64,000 nt of DNA, taken from the NCBI RefSeq assembly GCF_900115185.1, contig NZ_FOVN01000002.1, forward strand, positions 404,335 to 468,334, written 5' to 3'. The notes under the pieces were generated by a model. That model did no database searches. It worked only from the letters and a program-made list of their open reading frames with translations, and was not told the origin of the DNA. This stretch comes from Algorimicrobium echini (GTDB lineage Bacteria > Bacteroidota > Bacteroidia > Flavobacteriales > Flavobacteriaceae). Both the position numbers and the translations under genes were made by a program. The first letter of the stretch is position 1, and each line of letters starts with the position of its first letter. This document shows, one piece after another, positions 42,387 through 51,450 of the stretch.

Positions 42387-44090
42387 ATGCTTTTAATACT
42401 CTTTTCATGGATTTATATCATATTTACGAGTATGGTTTTTGGAATAAGTATAAATGGGGTTTTAAAAACAGATCCGTATCATTTAATAATTAGTGTTTTA
42501 CATGGTTTGTTTGGCATCATGCTCTTCACAGGTTTTTGGGCTGTTGTACTTCCCGTCAGTGTTTTTTTTCATGTGGCTTTATTAATAACAACCTGTACAT
42601 TACTGCATTTTAACTGGGATAATATAAAGTCCTCTTTACAGAATTTCTTTCAGGAGGTAAAAAGTTTATCTGTATTTTTTAAAAGTTTATTAGTTATAAT
42701 TACTCTCCTCATAATAGCACAATGTGCTTCTGCTCCTTTTCTAGTTGATAATGAAACGTATTACATTCAAACCATAGCTTGGCTAAATGAATATGGATTT
42801 GTTAAAGGTTTGGTGAATTTACACTTATTTTTAGGACAAACTTCCGGTTGGCACATACTACAAAGTGCGTTTAGCTTTAGCTTTTTAACAGATGCTCTTA
42901 ACGATTTAAGTGGATTGGCCTTACTTTTAGGAAATATTTACGCCTTAACCAAAATAAACAGCTATTTAAAATCGGAAAACACTAACAAATGGTATTTATT
43001 TATTGGTTTGTTACCTATTGTTAATTTCTTACTCTTTCAATTTATAAGTGCGCCTTCACCAGATTTGGCAATTTATGTACTTTCAATAATTGTATTTTAT
43101 CTATTTATAATCTTATATGACTTCTATCAGAAGAATATATTTATTTCATTAATTTTACTAACAAGCTTTATGGTGTGTATCAAACTCACCGCTTTACCAT
43201 TTCTCATTTTTCCACTTGCTACTTATGTTAAATATTATAAACAAACCCGTTTTTTAAACATCAAAATATTTTCGATTTTAGGAGTTTCAGCGTGCTTATT
43301 AGTTACGAAAAATGTAATAATTACTGGAAATCCGCTGTACCCTTTCTTGGGTATGGATAGTTTTAAAACAAGTTGGCATCTTCCAAAACCAATTGTAATC
43401 TATTTTAAAGAGTATGGCTTGGCTTATGGTTATCACATGGAGCCTGATTTTTTTGCAGAAACATCTTTTTTAGTACACATGAAGCATTGGTTATTTGCAT
43501 CTGGAATCCATGGTGTAACTAATAAAACAATAATGATTCTTTTAGTGATTTTACCCTTTATCATTAAAAAATGGTTTCACCAAAAAGCCTATTGGGTTTT
43601 CTATATAACACTTGTTTTAACAATGGTAGTTTTATGGAACACATCGCCACAATACCGGTTCTTTTTACCATTCATTTTGATTTCTGGTTTAATGATTTTA
43701 AGTATTATTAACTTGAAAAAGAGTGCTATTAAAACCATTTATATTGTCAGCACTATTTTAGTCTTTATAACTGTATTTCTGCCGATAAACAAACAAGCTT
43801 TTACAGAGAACACACAACACCAACAAACTTCTATATTTAAAATAGATTATATTTTAACACCACATAATAACAGTAAATTCCCTGTTGAATATGATGCTAA
43901 AATAATTGGGAACACACCTATTAATACGCCAAAAAACACCGATTTTTTCTGGGAAACGGGTAACACGCCAATTCCAGCTGTTAGCAATGCACAGTTAAAT
44001 TATTTTAAGGAATATTTTTTTGTAGTACCACAACTGCGAACCGAACGACTTCAAGACGGATTCTACAGTAAAAAAAATTTAACCAAATAA
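42387..44090 (+). CDS. Multi-span membrane protein, LIC_10190-like
   Basis: A 567-residue protein with about 11-13 hydrophobic helices and short polar loops; a last soluble part of about 80 residues follows. Conserved-looking positions include DNETYYIQTIAWLNEYGFVKGL and a loop NTSPQYRFFLP, patterns shared with GT-C-type membrane glycosyltransferases and the LIC_10190 family. The acidic DNE following the first helices could be a catalytic acid in such a fold. A glycosyltransferase role is possible but unproven. Confidence 0.72.
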   Translation: MLLILFSWIYIIFTSMVFGISINGVLKTDPYHLIISVLHGLFGIMLFTGFWAVVLPVSVFFHVALLITTCTLLHFNWDNIKSSLQNFFQEVKSLSVFFKSLLVIITLLIIAQCASAPFLVDNETYYIQTIAWLNEYGFVKGLVNLHLFLGQTSGWHILQSAFSFSFLTDALNDLSGLALLLGNIYALTKINSYLKSENTNKWYLFIGLLPIVNFLLFQFISAPSPDLAIYVLSIIVFYLFIILYDFYQKNIFISLILLTSFMVCIKLTALPFLIFPLATYVKYYKQTRFLNIKIFSILGVSACLLVTKNVIITGNPLYPFLGMDSFKTSWHLPKPIVIYFKEYGLAYGYHMEPDFFAETSFLVHMKHWLFASGIHGVTNKTIMILLVILPFIIKKWFHQKAYWVFYITLVLTMVVLWNTSPQYRFFLPFILISGLMILSIINLKKSAIKTIYIVSTILVFITVFLPINKQAFTENTQHQQTSIFKIDYILTPHNNSKFPVEYDAKIIGNTPINTPKNTDFFWETGNTPIPAVSNAQLNYFKEYFFVVPQLRTERLQDGFYSKKNLTK

Positions 44091-44100
44091 AAGGTTACCA

Positions 44101-44835
44101 TTAGCGATATTCTGGGTTTTCAAAATCCCATCGTGTACCATCATCCCAGTCTTCTCGAGAATTCCCATATTTAGGATAGCCGTTTTGCGCTTTCAACATC
44201 TGCGCTAAATGCAACATATTATAAGTCATAAATGTGGTATTTCTATTGGTAAAATCGCTATCAAAGCCCACTGGTGGGTTAATTTTTTCATCTTGCCATT
44301 CTGTATCGCCATAACTTGGCCCAGGACCAACTTCGCCAATCCAACCACAGTCTGCTTGAGGTGGTATAGAATAGCCTACATGTTGCAAAGCATATAAAAT
44401 ACCCATGGCACAATGTTTAACGCCATCTTCGTTACCAGTAACCAAACATCCACCTACTTTTCCATAAAAAATATACTGTCCTTTTTCATTAGTTTTCCCA
44501 CTCATAGCATATAACCGTTCTATAAGTTTTTGAGCTTCTGATGATTTTTCTCCTAGCCAAATAGGCGTGCCAACAATTAAAATATCAGCATCCATTACTT
44601 TTTTAAACAATTCTGGCCAATTATCCGTTTGCCATCCATGTTCAGTCATGTCTGGATAAATGCCTACAGCAACGTCTTGATCTATAAAACGAATAACCTC
44701 TGTAGTTACCCCTTCTCTGTCCATAATATTTCTAGAGACATTTATAAGTGTTTCTGTATGACTTTTTTGCGGTGACTTTTTTAAAGTACAATTAATAAAT
44801 AAGGCTTTTAAACCTTTAAAATCTGGTTTTTTCAT
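44101..44835 (-). CDS. NAD(P)H-dependent FMN reductase-like flavodoxin-fold protein
   Basis: From the ATG at 44835 this is a 244-residue protein. A flavodoxin fold is indicated by ALFINCTLKKSPQKSHT (phosphate loop), ILIVGTPIWLGEKSS (ring-binding loop) and KVGGCLVTGNEDGVKHC. An upstream in-frame TTG at 44853 was rejected because ATG is preferred and a -7-like TATCTTTTTG sits there. Members reduce quinones, azo dyes or other small molecules with NAD(P)H. It stands downstream of the QEGLA operon, separated by the structured element at 44972-45105. Confidence 0.82.
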   Translation of the reverse strand: MKKPDFKGLKALFINCTLKKSPQKSHTETLINVSRNIMDREGVTTEVIRFIDQDVAVGIYPDMTEHGWQTDNWPELFKKVMDADILIVGTPIWLGEKSSEAQKLIERLYAMSGKTNEKGQYIFYGKVGGCLVTGNEDGVKHCAMGILYALQHVGYSIPPQADCGWIGEVGPGPSYGDTEWQDEKINPPVGFDSDFTNRNTTFMTYNMLHLAQMLKAQNGYPKYGNSREDWDDGTRWDFENPEYR

Positions 44836-44971
44836 ATTGAATAGCTTTTTCAAAAAGATACAAAATGTTTTTGAATTCTAACCGAAAGCAACCTTTTACG
44901 AAATGAAACAGACCAAACACGTATTCTAATTAGCATACTTCTGCAATAAACAATAATTTGGTTGTATCAAG

Positions 44972-45105: not shown

Positions 45106-46251
45106 TTATTTTAAGCTATTTAGAATAAAGTCGATAGTTGTATTTGTATTTTTATTAGTCTGATAAGAATCCGTAAAATGTTTGGATGTAACTGCCAATC
45201 CTAATTCTTGCAATCTGTAAATTACAGCTGCATACTCTAATGTTACTTTTCCTGTTAATAACACATCTAAATCGCCATCATTTTGAGCGTATTGATAAAC
45301 CTTTTTCAATCCCGATAAATACAAGTGGTCTTTGGTAAAACCTCCACCTCTATGCACACGCAAAGTAATGGTAAATGCACCATCCCGTTTCACCTTATAT
45401 TGGCTATGAAGTAAATCGAACGTATCTGAAAAACTATAACCTTTTGCTAATGAGTCTGCTGCAATTACCCGATAAGCCAATTCTTTCAGACGTTTCATGG
45501 TTAAACAACCAGACATATATTCTGAATAAACGGCTAAACCTTCTTGTGTTTCTACATTATTTGGAAAACCACTGGAAAATATTTTTAAGGGCTGACTTAA
45601 TCCATTAAACGTCGTTACCATGTGCACGCCAACTTCGTGATTTGCAAGTACTTCTAACTGATTTTTACTAAATTTATGATTCTTTTTAAGCAGTAAAGTT
45701 TGCGTATTATTTTGAACCATGGCTGCTGCTGAAATATTTGTCGAAAATTTTAGATTATAAGAAAAATCATAACGCTTGGAAAAATCTTCAAAATATGTTT
45801 GAGCCTCGTGAACACTGTATTTAGATATTAAATCTTCCGAAGGTTCATCATCATCAAAACGTAAAATAAATTTAGCATTTTCAATATCTTTTTCGGTTGG
45901 TGTCCCAAAACTCTTCAAACTATTAAAGTAAAATTTTCGCCCTTGATTTATAGTATCTATACATTCTATTTTTCCCGAATACTCATAAATTATATCTTCA
46001 TATAATTGTCTAATATCATTATCTTCAATGCGTTCCAAACGTTGTGAGAAAAACAATCTGTGTAATTTATAACCATTAAATTTTACTTTTGGGTATTTAA
46101 AATTAGGCTCATAAGTATATTTTGAAGCGAAAAATTGCTTTTTTTCACTCTCTATATTTAAAGGATTTATATAGTTTAATAGTTCAATTTTTTTTACCAA
46201 TCGGTTCAAATTGGTATCAATTTCAAATAAATCTTGATAATTGTTAGTCAT
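45106..46251 (-). CDS. QEGLA-motif (DUF1704) metallopeptidase-like protein
   Basis: This 381-residue protein has HEVGVH at 205-210 (HExxxH zinc-binding form) and the family-name motif TQEGLAVYSEY with E237 as likely third ligand. The family (DUF1704, the flavohemoglobin expression-modulating QEGLA proteins) is related to eukaryotic tubulin-detyrosinating carboxypeptidases (MATCAP/TMCP). Bacterial substrates are unknown. It is the last gene of a four-gene operon with spacers of 24, 8 and 14 bases. A peptidase acting on a small peptide made by the upstream ligase is a reasonable hypothesis. Confidence 0.82.
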   Translation of the reverse strand: MTNNYQDLFEIDTNLNRLVKKIELLNYINPLNIESEKKQFFASKYTYEPNFKYPKVKFNGYKLHRLFFSQRLERIEDNDIRQLYEDIIYEYSGKIECIDTINQGRKFYFNSLKSFGTPTEKDIENAKFILRFDDDEPSEDLISKYSVHEAQTYFEDFSKRYDFSYNLKFSTNISAAAMVQNNTQTLLLKKNHKFSKNQLEVLANHEVGVHMVTTFNGLSQPLKIFSSGFPNNVETQEGLAVYSEYMSGCLTMKRLKELAYRVIAADSLAKGYSFSDTFDLLHSQYKVKRDGAFTITLRVHRGGGFTKDHLYLSGLKKVYQYAQNDGDLDVLLTGKVTLEYAAVIYRLQELGLAVTSKHFTDSYQTNKNTNTTIDFILNSLK

Positions 46252-46265
46252 AATTGCTGTTTCGT

Positions 46266-47096
46266 TTATTTTGAAATGTGCTTTAAAAATTCAGTGGCTT
46301 GCTCTGGAATAGACACTTTTAATTGATTTGCAATTGCATCTACTACTTCAGGATAAATAATTTGTTGGTACTCATCGCCATAAACTTTAGCAATTTCTGT
46401 AGCAAGCACCAAGGTGTTTTTAAAATTTTGAGTAATATATTTTAAAAAGTAGCCATTACCTTGAAAGGTATCATTAATGTTAGCTGTTTGCAAAGTCTTG
46501 TTTGGAAACTGAATTTGCGACAAACGTTTTCGCCATGATTCAACCAAAAAGCCAAAACGTTTATTATCAATATTACTGGTTCCTAAATTCCATGTTGGAA
46601 CCTCTCTATTCCAGCGTTTCCAGTTATAACTGTGCATATCGAAAACAATACAGCAGTTATGTTTTTCTTCTATTTTCTGAATTAATGCTGAAACCACTCT
46701 ATAAAAATTAGCATGTTTTTTTAAACTTTTAGCTTTCATAGGAATTGGAAGTGGTTGTTTCCATAACTGTTTTCCCCAAGCCGTTTCAAAAACAGCTTCT
46801 TCAGGTGGCCGATTTAAATCGTACTCAAAACGCGAATCACAACCTGCAACAACAATAGGATGCGATTCAATCATGGCTTTAGTAGCAGGATCTTCCTCAT
46901 ACCAACGTTCATAAGCTGAATGGAGACAATTATCCCAAAGTTCGGTTCTAAATTGATGACCATCATGAATAGCTGAACATACATAATGTACATAGGAATC
47001 AATTTTTAAAGTCAATGCATAATCATCAGAAACCGCGTGAAAACAGTCTTCATTTTTAATTTTTTTAATGATGGCTTCAATAGATAATTTTTCCAT
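46266..47096 (-). CDS. N-formylglutamate amidohydrolase family protein
   Basis: From ATG 47096 the product has 276 residues. GCDSRFEYDLNRPPE (around residue 85-99) and VFDMHSYNWKR (around 151-161) match the FGase family (PF05013), which hydrolyses N-acyl amino acids such as N-formylglutamate with zinc. A longer in-frame start at 47138 would overlap the upstream sulfurtransferase by 34 bases and was rejected. No histidine-degradation gene is nearby, so the true substrate may be different. It lies 14 bases before the QEGLA gene. Confidence 0.85.
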   Translation of the reverse strand: MEKLSIEAIIKKIKNEDCFHAVSDDYALTLKIDSYVHYVCSAIHDGHQFRTELWDNCLHSAYERWYEEDPATKAMIESHPIVVAGCDSRFEYDLNRPPEEAVFETAWGKQLWKQPLPIPMKAKSLKKHANFYRVVSALIQKIEEKHNCCIVFDMHSYNWKRWNREVPTWNLGTSNIDNKRFGFLVESWRKRLSQIQFPNKTLQTANINDTFQGNGYFLKYITQNFKNTLVLATEIAKVYGDEYQQIIYPEVVDAIANQLKVSIPEQATEFLKHISK

Positions 47097-47104
47097 ATTA
47101 CATT

Positions 47105-47935
47105 TTATTCTGGTATTAAACTTCCCCATTCTGTCCATGAACCATCATAAACAGTCAAATTTTGATAGCCTAACAAGGTAGCCGCCAATGCTAAAACACA
47201 AGCGGTTATTCCTGAACCACAGGAAAATGTGAGTGCATCATTTGGTTTTGCTATTTTAGAAAAAATAGTCTGTAATTCAGCTTCAGATTTCATAACACCA
47301 GAGTTTAACAAATTTTCAAAAGGAATATTAACGGAATTGGGAATGGTACCGCGACGCAAACCCACACGTGGCTCATCAACCATACAACGAAATCGAGCTT
47401 CTGAACGTGCATCAACCACTAATCGCTGATTTGTTTTCACATGCTGCTGCATATCTTTGAAAAAGACCATTTGTTCTTGGGGTTTTTTCGCTTTAAAATT
47501 ACCAGCTGTTTTTAAAGTTTCATAGTTGTTTGAAACCTGAAATCCTGCTTTTTTCCAAGCTGGTAAACCACCATCTAAAACAGCTACATTATCAAATCCA
47601 AAAGCTTTAAATAACCACCAAACACGAGGACTTGAATAAACTCCTTTATCATCATAAACAACAATTAAGCTATCTTGATTAATGCCTAATTTTTGAGCTT
47701 CATGTTGAAATTGTTTAAGTTCTGGAAACGTAGTTGGAAAAGGAGCAGACACATTACTAAACTTTTGTTTCAAATTGAAAAACAGGGCTGTTGGAATAAT
47801 TTCTTTATAAGCTATAACATCTAATTCTGTCGCTTTTGGAATAGTTGCATCTAAAACTATCAGATTTTTAGCATCTAAATTTTGGCATAACCAGTTTACA
47901 GAAACTAATGGTTTTTCAAGTTTTGAAAGCAGCAT
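47105..47935 (-). CDS. sseA: 3-mercaptopyruvate/thiosulfate sulfurtransferase
   Basis: A 276-residue protein of two rhodanese domains. The catalytic cysteine is C239 in the loop CGSGITA, the form typical of 3-mercaptopyruvate sulfurtransferases. VVDARSEARFRCMVDEPRVGLRRGTIPNSVN is the conserved segment of the second domain. It transfers sulfane sulfur to thiols or cyanide. In this operon it sits between the ATP-grasp ligase and the amidohydrolase, hinting at sulfur transfer onto a peptide or thiol product, which is inference. Confidence 0.9.
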   Translation of the reverse strand: MLLSKLEKPLVSVNWLCQNLDAKNLIVLDATIPKATELDVIAYKEIIPTALFFNLKQKFSNVSAPFPTTFPELKQFQHEAQKLGINQDSLIVVYDDKGVYSSPRVWWLFKAFGFDNVAVLDGGLPAWKKAGFQVSNNYETLKTAGNFKAKKPQEQMVFFKDMQQHVKTNQRLVVDARSEARFRCMVDEPRVGLRRGTIPNSVNIPFENLLNSGVMKSEAELQTIFSKIAKPNDALTFSCGSGITACVLALAATLLGYQNLTVYDGSWTEWGSLIPE

Positions 47936-47959
47936 AGTGATAATTTTAACTAAAAACCA

Positions 47960-48997
47960 TTAAGCTTCTTCAACCGTTTTTCGCAAGCGCGATCTTCTAT
48001 TGAAAGCTTCTACATTATCAAGAACCTTACTCTCTAGAAAGTCAATAACCTTCTCTTCTACCCGATATTTATTCTTATAAACTTTGTTTATATAAGTAAT
48101 TCCACCTGGCGACATGACATTTACTTCCACCAACTTTCCGCCTATAACGTCAATGCCAACAAAATACAATCCATCTTTTACCAATTTGGGTCCAATTTGT
48201 TTACATAGTGCTTTTTCAGCTTTTGTTAAAGTGTGTTTTTGAACCGAACCACCAGCCGACACATTAGAACGATGATCGTCCTTCCCTGGAACACGTTTCA
48301 TAGCGCCAATAGGCTCGCCATTAAGCATTAAAATGCGCACATCACCTTCATCTGCACCTTCAATATAATCTTGAAGAATGACATAGTTGGAAGTTCCATC
48401 GCTACTATTTATATAAAAATCTAAAAGCGAATTGATATTACTCATGGCCGATTTTTCTATAAGAATTACACCAGACCCTCCAAAACCATTTAATGGCTTG
48501 ATTATCATTTTATCAGCTTTTGACTCCTTGATTTGTCGCACTAAATAGTTCTTATTTTTAGATACGTGTGTATTTGGTATAATATTACTATGAGCATCAC
48601 CAAAAGCGGCCGTATACAATTTATTATTGGCCTCACGCATACCTTCTAATGAATTTATAATAAACACATCGTCTTTAACTGAATCTAAAAAATTAAGCAT
48701 TATTGGATCCAAAGGCGGATTTGCACGAAAGAAAATAGCATCAAAACCTGCTAGTGGCAACATTTCTTCCCGTCTTTCTGCTTTTTTATAAAACGCCTTT
48801 AAAGATGCTGGAACTTTATCCATGCGACTAATAACCGTACAAAACGCATTAGTTACACTATTGCGGATAGTTAAATTTGCAGGCGAACACAGAGCAACAC
48901 CATGACCACGTTTAACACATTCTTTTATCAAAGCGAGGCTAGTATCATTTTCCGGGTCGATATTTTCCCAAGGATACATTAAAAAACAAACATTCAT
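47960..48997 (-). CDS. GshB-like ATP-grasp ligase (glutathione synthase family)
   Basis: A 345-residue ATP-grasp protein. The N-domain is GshB-like (MYPWENIDPENDTSLALIKE, then FFRANPPLDPIMLNFLD and NSLEGMREANNKLY). The ATP-binding loop reads KPLNGFGGSGVILIEK, and DVIGGKLVEVNVMSPGG holds the magnesium-binding Glu/Asn. In true glutathione synthesis it joins glycine to gamma-glutamylcysteine. No gshA is visible in the window, and bshA at 59529 suggests that bacillithiol may be the main thiol. The substrate may therefore be a different gamma-glutamyl or peptide acceptor. It is the first gene of the four-gene operon. Confidence 0.85.
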   Translation of the reverse strand: MNVCFLMYPWENIDPENDTSLALIKECVKRGHGVALCSPANLTIRNSVTNAFCTVISRMDKVPASLKAFYKKAERREEMLPLAGFDAIFFRANPPLDPIMLNFLDSVKDDVFIINSLEGMREANNKLYTAAFGDAHSNIIPNTHVSKNKNYLVRQIKESKADKMIIKPLNGFGGSGVILIEKSAMSNINSLLDFYINSSDGTSNYVILQDYIEGADEGDVRILMLNGEPIGAMKRVPGKDDHRSNVSAGGSVQKHTLTKAEKALCKQIGPKLVKDGLYFVGIDVIGGKLVEVNVMSPGGITYINKVYKNKYRVEEKVIDFLESKVLDNVEAFNRRSRLRKTVEEA

Positions 48998-49026
48998 AAT
49001 ATTGACTCTGAATTAATTACTGACTA

Positions 49027-49050
49027 AAAATAAGTAAGAAAACTTATTTT
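49027..49050 (-). terminator. AT-rich hairpin at the gltP stop codon
   Basis: AAAATAAGT (49027-49035) and ACTTATTTT (49042-49050) form a 9-bp stem with a six-base loop, overlapping the gltP stop codon. On the minus strand it is followed by a T-rich TTTTTA run. It may terminate or attenuate transcription between gltP and the gshB-like gene, which begins 29 bases later. Confidence 0.55.
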
Positions 49051-50359
49051 ACTCATTTTTTTTAGTATAATTATCATCCCAATTTTTAACTTCAGGCTCA
49101 CCTAGTTTATCTACAGATTTTGCAACCATCATGGAAACTGCAGCATCACCTGTTATGTTTACCGTAGTTCTACACATATCTAACGGTCTATCTACCGCAA
49201 AAATTAACGCTAATCCAGCTTCAGGAATTCCTGCTTGTGCCAAAACAATTACAAGCATGACCATACCGGCTCCTGGAACAGCAGCACTACCAATGGACGC
49301 TAATGTTGCGGTGGCAATAATACCTAATTGCACTCCAAAACTTAAATCCATACCAAAGGCTTGGGCTATAAAAACAGCTGCAACAGCTTGATACAAACTA
49401 GTTCCATCCATATTAATGGTTGCACCAATAGGCAACACAAAACTGGTAACCTCTTCATCGACACCTAAATGTTCCTCTACGCGCTCCATAGTTACTGGCA
49501 AGGTTGCTGCACTACTACTGGTTGAAAAACCTAATAATTGAGCTGGAGCAATTCCGTTGAAGAAAAATTTTGGAGTTCTTTTGGTAACAATAAATACTAA
49601 AAGTGCATAAACAGCCATCATAAGTGCCAAGCCTAAAACCACACAAAATGCATACCACCCAAGGGCTTTAAATAAATCAGCACTCGGTGCTTCCACAACC
49701 AAAGCGGCTAATAATGCAAATACGCCATATGGTGCAGCAAGCATAATTAAATCAATGAGTTTGAGAATCACTTCATTGAAACTATCAAAAAACTGTTTTA
49801 CAGGCTCTGACTTTTCTTCAGGAATTAAAATCAGTCCTAAACCAAATAAAATAGCAAAGAATATTACCTGCAACATATTACCATTGTCACTAGCTGCTTT
49901 AAAAATATTGCTTGGAACAAGATCTTCTAAAGCTTGTAATGGTCCAGCATTTTTTTGCTTTTCGGCATCGGCTATTTTACCATCGGCATCAGCTTTATAG
50001 CTTTCTACTAGTTCCGTTCGTGTTTCTGGTGAAATAGATTTTCCAGGCTTTACTATATTTACAACAGCCAAACCTATAGATACAGCAATTAGTGTTGTAA
50101 AGATGTAAATTCCAATGGTTCGACCTCCCATTTTTGACAATTTAGAAATATCTTTTAAGTCAGAAACGCCCTTTATTAAAGAAGCTAATATTAGAGGTAC
50201 TGCTATAAGTTTCAATAAATTAATAAAAATGGTGCCAAAGGGTTTTACCCAATCTGTAATTATTTGACTTCCAAATTCGAATTTGGACATCAGTAAGGCA
50301 AAAGCAACACCTAAAACCATTCCAAGAATAATTTGCCAATGTAATGCGAGTTTCTTCAT
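49049..50359 (-). CDS. gltP: Dicarboxylate/amino acid:cation symporter (DAACS family)
   Basis: A 436-residue transporter with about eight helices and two re-entrant hairpins. The serine-rich hairpin TSSSAATLPVTME and the GATINMDGTSLYQ motif mark the glutamate/aspartate:cation symporters, and DRPLDMCRTTVNITGD carries the aspartate and arginine that bind the substrate side chain. It takes up glutamate, aspartate or C4-dicarboxylates. It lies 32 bases after aroC and 51 bases before the gshB-like gene, with a hairpin in the second gap. Confidence 0.92.
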   Translation of the reverse strand: MKKLALHWQIILGMVLGVAFALLMSKFEFGSQIITDWVKPFGTIFINLLKLIAVPLILASLIKGVSDLKDISKLSKMGGRTIGIYIFTTLIAVSIGLAVVNIVKPGKSISPETRTELVESYKADADGKIADAEKQKNAGPLQALEDLVPSNIFKAASDNGNMLQVIFFAILFGLGLILIPEEKSEPVKQFFDSFNEVILKLIDLIMLAAPYGVFALLAALVVEAPSADLFKALGWYAFCVVLGLALMMAVYALLVFIVTKRTPKFFFNGIAPAQLLGFSTSSSAATLPVTMERVEEHLGVDEEVTSFVLPIGATINMDGTSLYQAVAAVFIAQAFGMDLSFGVQLGIIATATLASIGSAAVPGAGMVMLVIVLAQAGIPEAGLALIFAVDRPLDMCRTTVNITGDAAVSMMVAKSVDKLGEPEVKNWDDNYTKKNE

Positions 50360-50391: not shown

Positions 50392-51450
50392 TTAATATAC
50401 TTTATTCAATAAAAAATAATCGGCTAACACCAGCGCTGCCATTGCTTCTACAATGGGCACTGCTCTTGGAACAACACATGGATCATGACGTCCTTTGCCT
50501 TGCATTTCAACTAATTCGCCACTAGAATTAAGAGCTTCTTGTTTTTGAATTACTGTTGCCACTGGTTTAAAAGCTACACGGAAATAAATATCCATACCAT
50601 TGCTTATACCACCTTGAATACCTCCAGACAAGTTTGTTTTGGTTGAACCATCATCATGAAATAAATCGTTATGTTCAGTCCCTGTCATTTTAGCGCCACA
50701 GAAACCACTACCATATTCAAAACCTTTTACGGCATTTATAGATAGCATGGCTTTTCCTAATTCAGCATGAAGTTTATCAAAAACAGGTTCGCCTAAACCA
50801 ACAGGCACATTTTGCAAAACACAGGTTATAGTTCCACCTATGGTATTGCCTTCTTTTCGAATGGCTTTAATTTTATCTATCATACGGTTTGCTGTTTCTG
50901 CATCAGGACAGCGTATAACATTTGATTCAATTTTTGAAAAATCCAGATCTTGATAAGGTTTTTCCAAAAAAATATCACCAACAGAAGACGTGTAGGCCTG
51001 AATTTTAACTGACTTTAAAACCTGTTTTGCTAGTGCACCAGCTACTACACGAGAAGCCGTTTCTCGTGCAGAACTTCGACCTCCACCACGATAATCGCGA
51101 ATGCCATATTTTTGGTCGTAGGTATAATCTGCATGGCTTGGACGGTACACATCTTTAATGTGTGAATAGTCCTTGGATTTCTGATTGGCATTTTTAATCG
51201 TAAAACCAATTGGTGTCCCTGTCGTTTTTCCTTCAAAAATTCCTGATAAAAATTCAACCGTATCAGGTTCTTTACGTTGTGTAACGATTTCAGACTGTCC
51301 AGGTTTTCGCCTGTTTAATTCCTGTTGGATAGCTTCAAAATCAACTTCCAACCCAGGAGGACAACCATCAATAATTCCACCAATGGCTAAACCATGCGAT
51401 TCGCCAAAGGTTGTTAATTTAAATAAATTTCCAAAGGAATTTCCTGCCAT
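50392..51450 (-). CDS. aroC: Chorismate synthase
   Basis: A 352-residue enzyme that converts EPSP to chorismate using reduced FMN, the last step of the shikimate pathway. It starts [17 protein letters not shown] and holds the conserved blocks [20 protein letters not shown] and [10 protein letters not shown], then ends in a typical [17 protein letters not shown] segment. It leads a minus-strand run with gltP and the four-gene operon, divergent from the LpxH-like gene. Confidence 0.96.

Follow-up and report, generated by a model that had tools for sequence, protein, structure and literature searches.

A conserved trio of GshB-like ligase, FGase-fold hydrolase and MATCAP/QEGLA metallopeptidase genes in Algorimicrobium echini and its possible function

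Why do a GshB-like ATP-grasp ligase, a rhodanese, an amidohydrolase and a metallopeptidase stand side by side in one bacterial gene cluster? The question is raised by four minus-strand genes at positions 45106–48997 of a 64,000-nucleotide stretch (the window) of Algorimicrobium echini (assembly GCF_900115185.1, contig NZ_FOVN01000002.1). According to the original prediction, these genes form an operon whose products could ligate, sulfur-modify, deacylate and trim a small gamma-glutamyl peptide or thiol. Open reading frame (ORF) and profile checks bore out the four genes, their families and the spacers of 24, 8 and 14 bp, and the CGSGITA, HEVGVH and QEGLA motifs are present in the sequence. The real unit is a module of three genes, which encode the GshB-like ligase, a hydrolase of the N-formylglutamate amidohydrolase (FGase) fold and a metallopeptidase of the MATCAP/QEGLA family. 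We propose, with moderate confidence, a ligate-and-trim function for it, with a small peptide or a peptide tail as the substrate.

Conservation of the three genes

We surveyed 149 Flavobacteriaceae genomes from 148 genera and counted as a partner any gene within 6 kb. Ligases were counted as NF009110 matches above 200 bits among the matches listed, and four weak PF05013 rows (three in G413, one in G019) were dropped from the FGase count. The MATCAP family, PF08014, is found at 88 places in 77 of the 149 genomes. With the dividing line set at a frame length of 500 amino acids (aa), its members comprise 65 short forms (mostly about 390 aa) and 23 long forms (about 615 aa). Both a ligase and a PF05013 gene accompany 59 of the 65 short forms; one form, on a contig starting at the rhodanese (G385), has the FGase only, and five have neither partner. 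All 23 long forms lie beside a ligase of another subtype. Seen from the ligase side, 83 of 84 ligases lie near a PF08014 gene. Their NF009110 scores are 442–472 bits beside short QEGLA genes (201 for one ligase truncated at a contig end) and 374–437 bits beside long ones; the subtype of the ligase thus matches that of the QEGLA protein.

The same arrangement is seen at named loci, of which we took the best 80 of at least 576 confirmed relatives, Winogradskyella, Aquimarina, Dokdonia and Allomuricauda among them; ten of the 80 are shorter than 16 kb. In the neighbourhood tables, which hold ORFs of at least 80 or at least 90 aa, the ligase is present at 73 of these loci and the FGase at 75. The median gap is −1 bp between FGase and QEGLA genes (137 pairs) and −8 bp between GshB-like and FGase genes (79 pairs), with ORFs taken from the first start codon, which exaggerates overlap, and with some genomes counted twice. 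The arrangement is conserved far beyond chance. Co-occurrence beyond close relatives, set in advance as the test of the prediction, was found for the ligase–FGase–QEGLA trio.

It turned out that the fourth family is not a constant companion. The two-domain rhodanese (276 aa, 47105–47935, minus strand; PF00581 in two stretches) resembles 3-mercaptopyruvate sulfurtransferases and has the CGSGITA loop; its score against the equivalog model NF008557 is 223.8 bits, below the cut-off of 250. Only 23 of the best 80 named loci carry a rhodanese, and we rejected it as a core part. A protein of about 110 aa occurs at 21 of these loci. In L035 (10357–10692) and six relatives it lies between the ligase or rhodanese and the FGase, and the one member tested gave no Pfam match above cut-off. 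Both proteins are optional accessories. Thus, of the predicted co-occurrence of four families, the part that stands is the ligase, FGase and metallopeptidase, which are conserved and co-evolve across phyla, and a sulfurtransferase step drops out of the core of the proposed ligation, deacylation and trimming.

Co-evolution was assessed by partial Mantel correlation given AroC, the species control, at the 47 of 91 loci where all five genes are separate ORFs below 550 aa. The coefficients were 0.65 for FGase–QEGLA, 0.48 for GshB–QEGLA and 0.43 for GshB–FGase, each with p 0.001.

The module also recurs in other Bacteroidota, in Rhizobiales and in Photobacterium. At the phylum level PF08014 was found in 16 of 296 genomes. 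Eight of the 16 are from outside the family. We read the locus of each: five (L204–L207 and L209) have an FGase, a long QEGLA gene and a ligase, L203 has a ligase with an FGase::MATCAP fusion, and L208 has a long QEGLA gene and a ligase, accompanied by an AstE-like gene that is read in the other direction. An apparent MATCAP::ligase fusion of 914 aa in L209 was rejected, as the MATCAP part is in another frame. Among plasmids, 127 records, mostly rhizobial, gave a tblastn match. Four rhizobial loci were read (Mesorhizobium, Sinorhizobium meliloti R14 pSymB, Shinella and Aminobacter), and each has an FGase, a long QEGLA gene and a ligase, the S. meliloti ligase being an ORF missing from the plasmid gene table. 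In Photobacterium sp. DA100 (L218) a ligase is followed by an FGase::MATCAP fusion. Vibrio sp. HDW18 (L214) also has such a fusion, in which the FGase DxHS motif reads DMYAYN, and a ligase was not found within the 15 kb read. Together with L036 and L045, fusions of this type were seen at five loci.

The N-terminal part of the long QEGLA form, about 250 aa, is homologous to the FGase (hhalign 95.4%, E 1.7e-8) and is degenerate, with the catalytic motifs missing. Among 12 long Flavobacteriaceae loci read, seven (L046, L117–L121 and L210) have an AstE/aspartoacylase-like gene after the ligase (67 and 70 bits against PF24827 for the two tested), and three (L044, L113 and L213) have an FGase before the QEGLA gene. 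We interpret the AstE-like genes as substitutes for the FGase, both being hydrolases of acyl-amino acids, and such an exchange suggests that the chemistry is shared.

The three enzymes and the glutathione question

The metallopeptidase (381 aa, 45106–46251, minus strand) matches PF08014 with 337 bits (cut-off 27) and scores 306.3 bits against the equivalog TIGR02421, under its cut-off of 338.65. Its AlphaFold model (pLDDT 92.4) superimposes on human MATCAP, 7z6s, with Z 25.0 and an rmsd of 2.9 over 291 residues; the next fold matches, DUF885 and M32 carboxypeptidases, have Z 10–15. Of 174 aligned rows, in which some genomes are counted twice (by G handle and by named record), 171 retain all zinc ligands (HExxxH...E), the window protein included. 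The exceptions are the two halves of a split gene, L094, and L039 (G012), an orphan without adjoining ligase and FGase, which has lost two metal ligands (HEIGVN, QAGLA), a hint of decay after partner loss. Judged by sequence and model, the protein is related to the human enzyme by which tubulin tails are clipped, and the predicted kinship with tubulin carboxypeptidases is real. It has in common with MATCAP/TMCP (KIAA0895L, PF08014) the fold, the metal site and the motif F[ST]KDxxYLxG, shared by the aligned bacterial and MATCAP sequences. The bacterial form differs in being borne on an operon beside a ligase and an FGase, and its carboxypeptidase activity is a prediction. Enzymes of the TMCP/MATCAP group cut Tyr and Glu from C termini and also deglutamylate (PMC10499314).

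The FGase-fold amidohydrolase (46266–47096, minus strand) is 276 aa long from an internal ATG. The longest ORF begins at 47138 and would overlap the rhodanese gene; with the internal start, at 47096, the spacer is 8 bp. The protein matches PF05013 with 50.6 bits (cut-off 28.9). A PDB sequence search with a relative (L035) gave no match at E 1, and a fold model was therefore used. The AlphaFold model (pLDDT 87.7) is closest to the N-formylglutamate amidohydrolase 2q7s (Z 22) and to a second FGase (Z 19.7), followed by M14 carboxypeptidases (Z about 12), the murein-peptide amidase MpaA and Csd4 (Z about 10–11) and AstE (Z 10). The HxG, DLNR, DxHS and E motifs are conserved. The fold and these motifs are shared with HutG, but the score against the HutG equivalog TIGR02017 is 12.2 bits, far under the cut-off of 278.75, and no histidine-degradation gene was recognised beside the window gene.

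The GshB-like ATP-grasp ligase (345 aa, 47960–48997, minus strand; PF02955/PF02951) belongs to the PRK12458/NF009110 subfamily, with 461.9 bits against a cut-off of 408; we call this ligase type system A. One explanation of the cluster would be ordinary glutathione synthesis beside unrelated neighbours. The score against the glutathione synthase equivalog NF003573 is 280 bits, narrowly above the cut-off of 272, and ten E. coli GshB residues (K125, K160, D208, R210, R225, R233, N235, D273, E281 and N283) are retained, with roles that we take to be those assigned in GshB. The score against TIGR01380 is 236.3 bits, under the cut-off of 299.05, and RimK keeps the same ATP- and Mg-binding residues. 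The segment TSPT(C/G)I adjoining the Mg ligand, presumably a hallmark of GshB, is changed in the 14 cassette ligases aligned. In all of them T288 of E. coli GshB is G, [ST]PG[GA][ILM] replaces SPTCI, and the following IRE is retained in one (L045). In short, the protein shares with prokaryotic GshB both GSH-S domains, the ATP/Mg residues and about 30% identity to the E. coli enzyme, and it differs in T288, the adjacent segment and the linkage to FGase and MATCAP genes.

The partner genes of glutathione synthesis are scarce. GshA of the PF04262 family was found in none of the 149 Flavobacteriaceae genomes, and the positive controls E. coli and Bacteroides ihuae matched. The GCS2 family (PF04107) is present in 26 of 149 genomes, in 8 of 59 with the short triad and in 7 of 21 with the long form, which is some support for a glutathione pathway, but 51 of the 59 triad genomes are without it. 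The A. echini genome has one GCS2-family gene (93 bits), which lies in a separate operon. The bacillithiol gene bshC (PF10079) occurs in 144 of 149 genomes, A. echini included. With few gamma-glutamylcysteine ligases, bacillithiol genes instead, and a changed ligase segment, glutathione is unlikely as the product of the module, and so is a glutathione-type variant of the predicted small gamma-glutamyl peptide or thiol. Taken with the conserved linkage to FGase and QEGLA genes, these data make ordinary glutathione synthesis highly improbable.

Two side observations concern these gene families. The separate operon of A. echini (L220, 5084–8432) encodes an RLAN-type ATP-grasp protein, the GCS2 protein and a second FGase, and G382, G019 and G412 each have a group of ORFs that resemble these in length and sequence. 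This is another pairing of ligase and FGase within the same genome, alike in joining amidoligases to an FGase and different in its ligases and in being without MATCAP. In addition, 5 of the 23 long-QEGLA loci (G017, G420, G392, G397 and G358) have bshC no more than about 4 kb away, in the opposite orientation, and all five genomes also carry the short triad. This is possibly one clade's insertion site or a link to thiol metabolism.

The gltP site and its surroundings

Upstream of the cluster, on the same strand, lie gltP (49049–50359), encoding a GltP-type dicarboxylate symporter (PF00375), after a gap of 51 bp, and, 32 bp further on, aroC (50392–51450), encoding chorismate synthase (PF01264, 470 bits). 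They are present at 65 and 63 of the best 80 named loci, and aroC is a conserved flank of the site. The frequency of gltP, together with the resemblance of the FGase model to MpaA and Csd4, would suit a catabolic role, in which the hydrolases degrade an N-acylated or cell-wall peptide, taken up or recycled, to yield glutamate or aspartate, and the ligase puts a product to new use. However, all 20 genomes examined that lack an intact cassette have gltP (one match is weak), and no co-evolution of GltP was detected by partial Mantel correlation with QEGLA (0.08, p 0.14) or FGase (0.04, p 0.24). For this reason we rejected GltP as a part of the module; it is a chromosomal neighbour, probably outside the unit. 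Moreover, a ligase that spends ATP is an odd partner for pure catabolism. We consider scavenging unlikely as the function of the cluster.

The site downstream of gltP was read in seven of the 20 genomes without an intact cassette. It holds what is left of a ligase of the second type, with a frameshift, in G002, only an FGase in G015 (near the contig end), only a rhodanese in G359, and no module gene in G004, G033, G026 and G025. In G003, pieces of the ligase and QEGLA genes remain. Such remnant, partial and empty sites indicate repeated gain, loss and swap, and a module that is gained, lost and swapped between genomes suggests a conditional function.

The spacing of the four genes suggests a single transcript. 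With gltP and aroC upstream on the same strand, it may be longer than the four genes. A separate four-gene transcript is likewise possible, given an AT-rich hairpin with a U-run after gltP (49000–49060, minus strand; −8.8 kcal/mol, z −2.1), possibly a weak terminator, which a scan for G+C-rich terminators missed. Promoter scans gave fewer matches than expected by chance. Downstream of the cluster is a gene for a LIC_10190 family membrane protein (42387–44090; NF047510, 423 bits), convergent with an FMN-reductase-like gene (44101–44853). We also considered a defence system and rejected it: seven proteins gave no PADLOC model match at E 0.01. We likewise rejected carriage by phages, for which one scan of viral contigs gave a single match, of 56 residues.

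Possible function and significance

The enzyme classes rest on sequence and fold, and from them we infer the chemistry, its direction, the substrate and the physiology. Judging by its family, the ligase would use ATP to activate a carboxylate and couple an amino acid or an amine to it; the resulting amide would be C-terminal in a small peptide or in a peptide tail, and glutathione is an unlikely product. The FGase/AstE-type enzyme and the MATCAP metallocarboxypeptidase, which differ in fold, would release terminal residues or an acyl group, and in this way the product would mature or be recycled. Both the FGase and the AstE family act on acidic amino acids that carry an N-acyl group, which suggests glutamate or aspartate among the joined parts; an acidic residue is probably present in the substrate.

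LysW/LysX/LysK pathways are known in which biosynthesis proceeds on a carrier, with loading by a ligase and release by a hydrolase. Here the ligase could load an amino acid onto the C terminus of an amino-group carrier, and a carboxypeptidase-like enzyme could release the finished product. The ligase is related to LysX (37 bits, far under that model's cut-off), and the pairing of a ligase with carboxypeptidase-like release enzymes is of this kind. In the neighbourhood tables, where the unnamed ORFs are mostly unassigned, most loci have no further gene in common beside the module, so that no conserved partner of the kinase or reductase kind is apparent; the tables begin at 80 aa, so that a carrier of LysW size would escape them, and no search was aimed at a carrier. 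We regard this explanation as very improbable.

Alternatively, the target may be a cellular protein, extended at its C terminus by the ligase and shortened again by the two hydrolases, in analogy to the TTLL, CCP and MATCAP enzymes of the tubulin code. TTLL enzymes have an ATP-grasp-type fold and CCP enzymes the M14 fold. The resemblance is a works-like parallel, as those enzymes are eukaryotic and act on tubulin tails, and of the three only the MATCAP homology is shown here. Editing of this kind is consistent with the Z of 25 to MATCAP, with the activities of TMCP/MATCAP enzymes on C-terminal Tyr and Glu, with M14 carboxypeptidases as the next-closest fold of the FGase model, and with the relation of the ligase to RimK. 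But among tabulated ORFs of at least 80 aa no extra gene travels with the module, and small molecules are the usual substrates of FGase and AstE families. RimK-type modification of ribosomal protein S6 requires an acidic C-terminal tail. The S6 of A. echini ends in RRRVKLKEKA, a basic tail, which makes the classic RimK target unlikely, and we rejected S6 as the target in this one genome. Editing of protein tails is, in our opinion, quite unlikely.

Published expression data may bear on the conditions under which the module works. In Photobacterium damselae RM-71, A0J47_RS17020, treated by the authors as an ordinary glutathione synthase GshB, was up 38.42-fold at 1% versus 3% NaCl and A0J47_RS17025, a QEGLA motif protein, 27.51-fold (PMC10308900). 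The low-salt response was broad, with 1,808 genes changed. A RimK-annotated ligase was up 52-fold in Table 2 of the same study, so that two annotated ATP-grasp-type ligases respond together. In Vibrio vulnificus, VV2_1203 (COG3930) and VV2_1204 (glutathione synthetase) are both listed as clade 2-specific (PMC3091676). By their names, their consecutive tags and the arrangement in DA100, both pairs would represent the module. Its conditional function is perhaps tied to osmolarity.

Several observations weigh against a joint ligate-and-trim role. The RM-71 and V. vulnificus genes are identified by names and consecutive tags only. One locus outside the family (L202) has a lone QEGLA gene, and two long loci (L043 and L116) are without an adjoining FGase or AstE gene and have DnaJ-like genes and/or bshC as neighbours, their genomes (G017 and G392) holding a complete short triad elsewhere. 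At ten orphan loci gltP and QEGLA stand without adjoining ligase and FGase genes: the five of 65 in the family survey and five of the best 80 named loci with aroC, gltP and QEGLA only (one with two gltP copies), two sets that may overlap. The zinc ligands persist in nine of the ten, and MATCAP may therefore work without partners. GshB and GltP show a partial Mantel correlation of 0.29 (p 0.001). Finally, a ligase and two hydrolases of one operon could act on different substrates.

Judged by titles, the beginnings of abstracts and passages, our literature search did not find a description of the trio. An earlier mention is possible, most likely in a 2009 paper on amidoligases by Iyer and colleagues. 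The public records that we read name the metallopeptidase after flavohemoglobin and call the ligases glutathione synthetase or glutathione synthase, and both annotations could be corrected more easily once the trio is recognised. The trio gives the first concrete pathway context that we found for bacterial MATCAP homologues, and its enzymes are a convenient set with which to look for the substrate. Given the removal of Tyr and Glu by MATCAP/TMCP, the boldest reading is a bacterial tail-editing cycle under osmotic control, related to the tubulin code: the ligase would lengthen a peptide or protein at its C terminus, and the M14-fold hydrolase and the MATCAP carboxypeptidase would take the added residues off. 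Eukaryotic MATCAP would then have come into microtubule biology from bacteria, where its family was already acting as the counterpart of a ligase. We consider this decidedly unlikely. If it is true that the substrate is a protein tail, the module would bear on the origin of the tubulin-tail enzymes.

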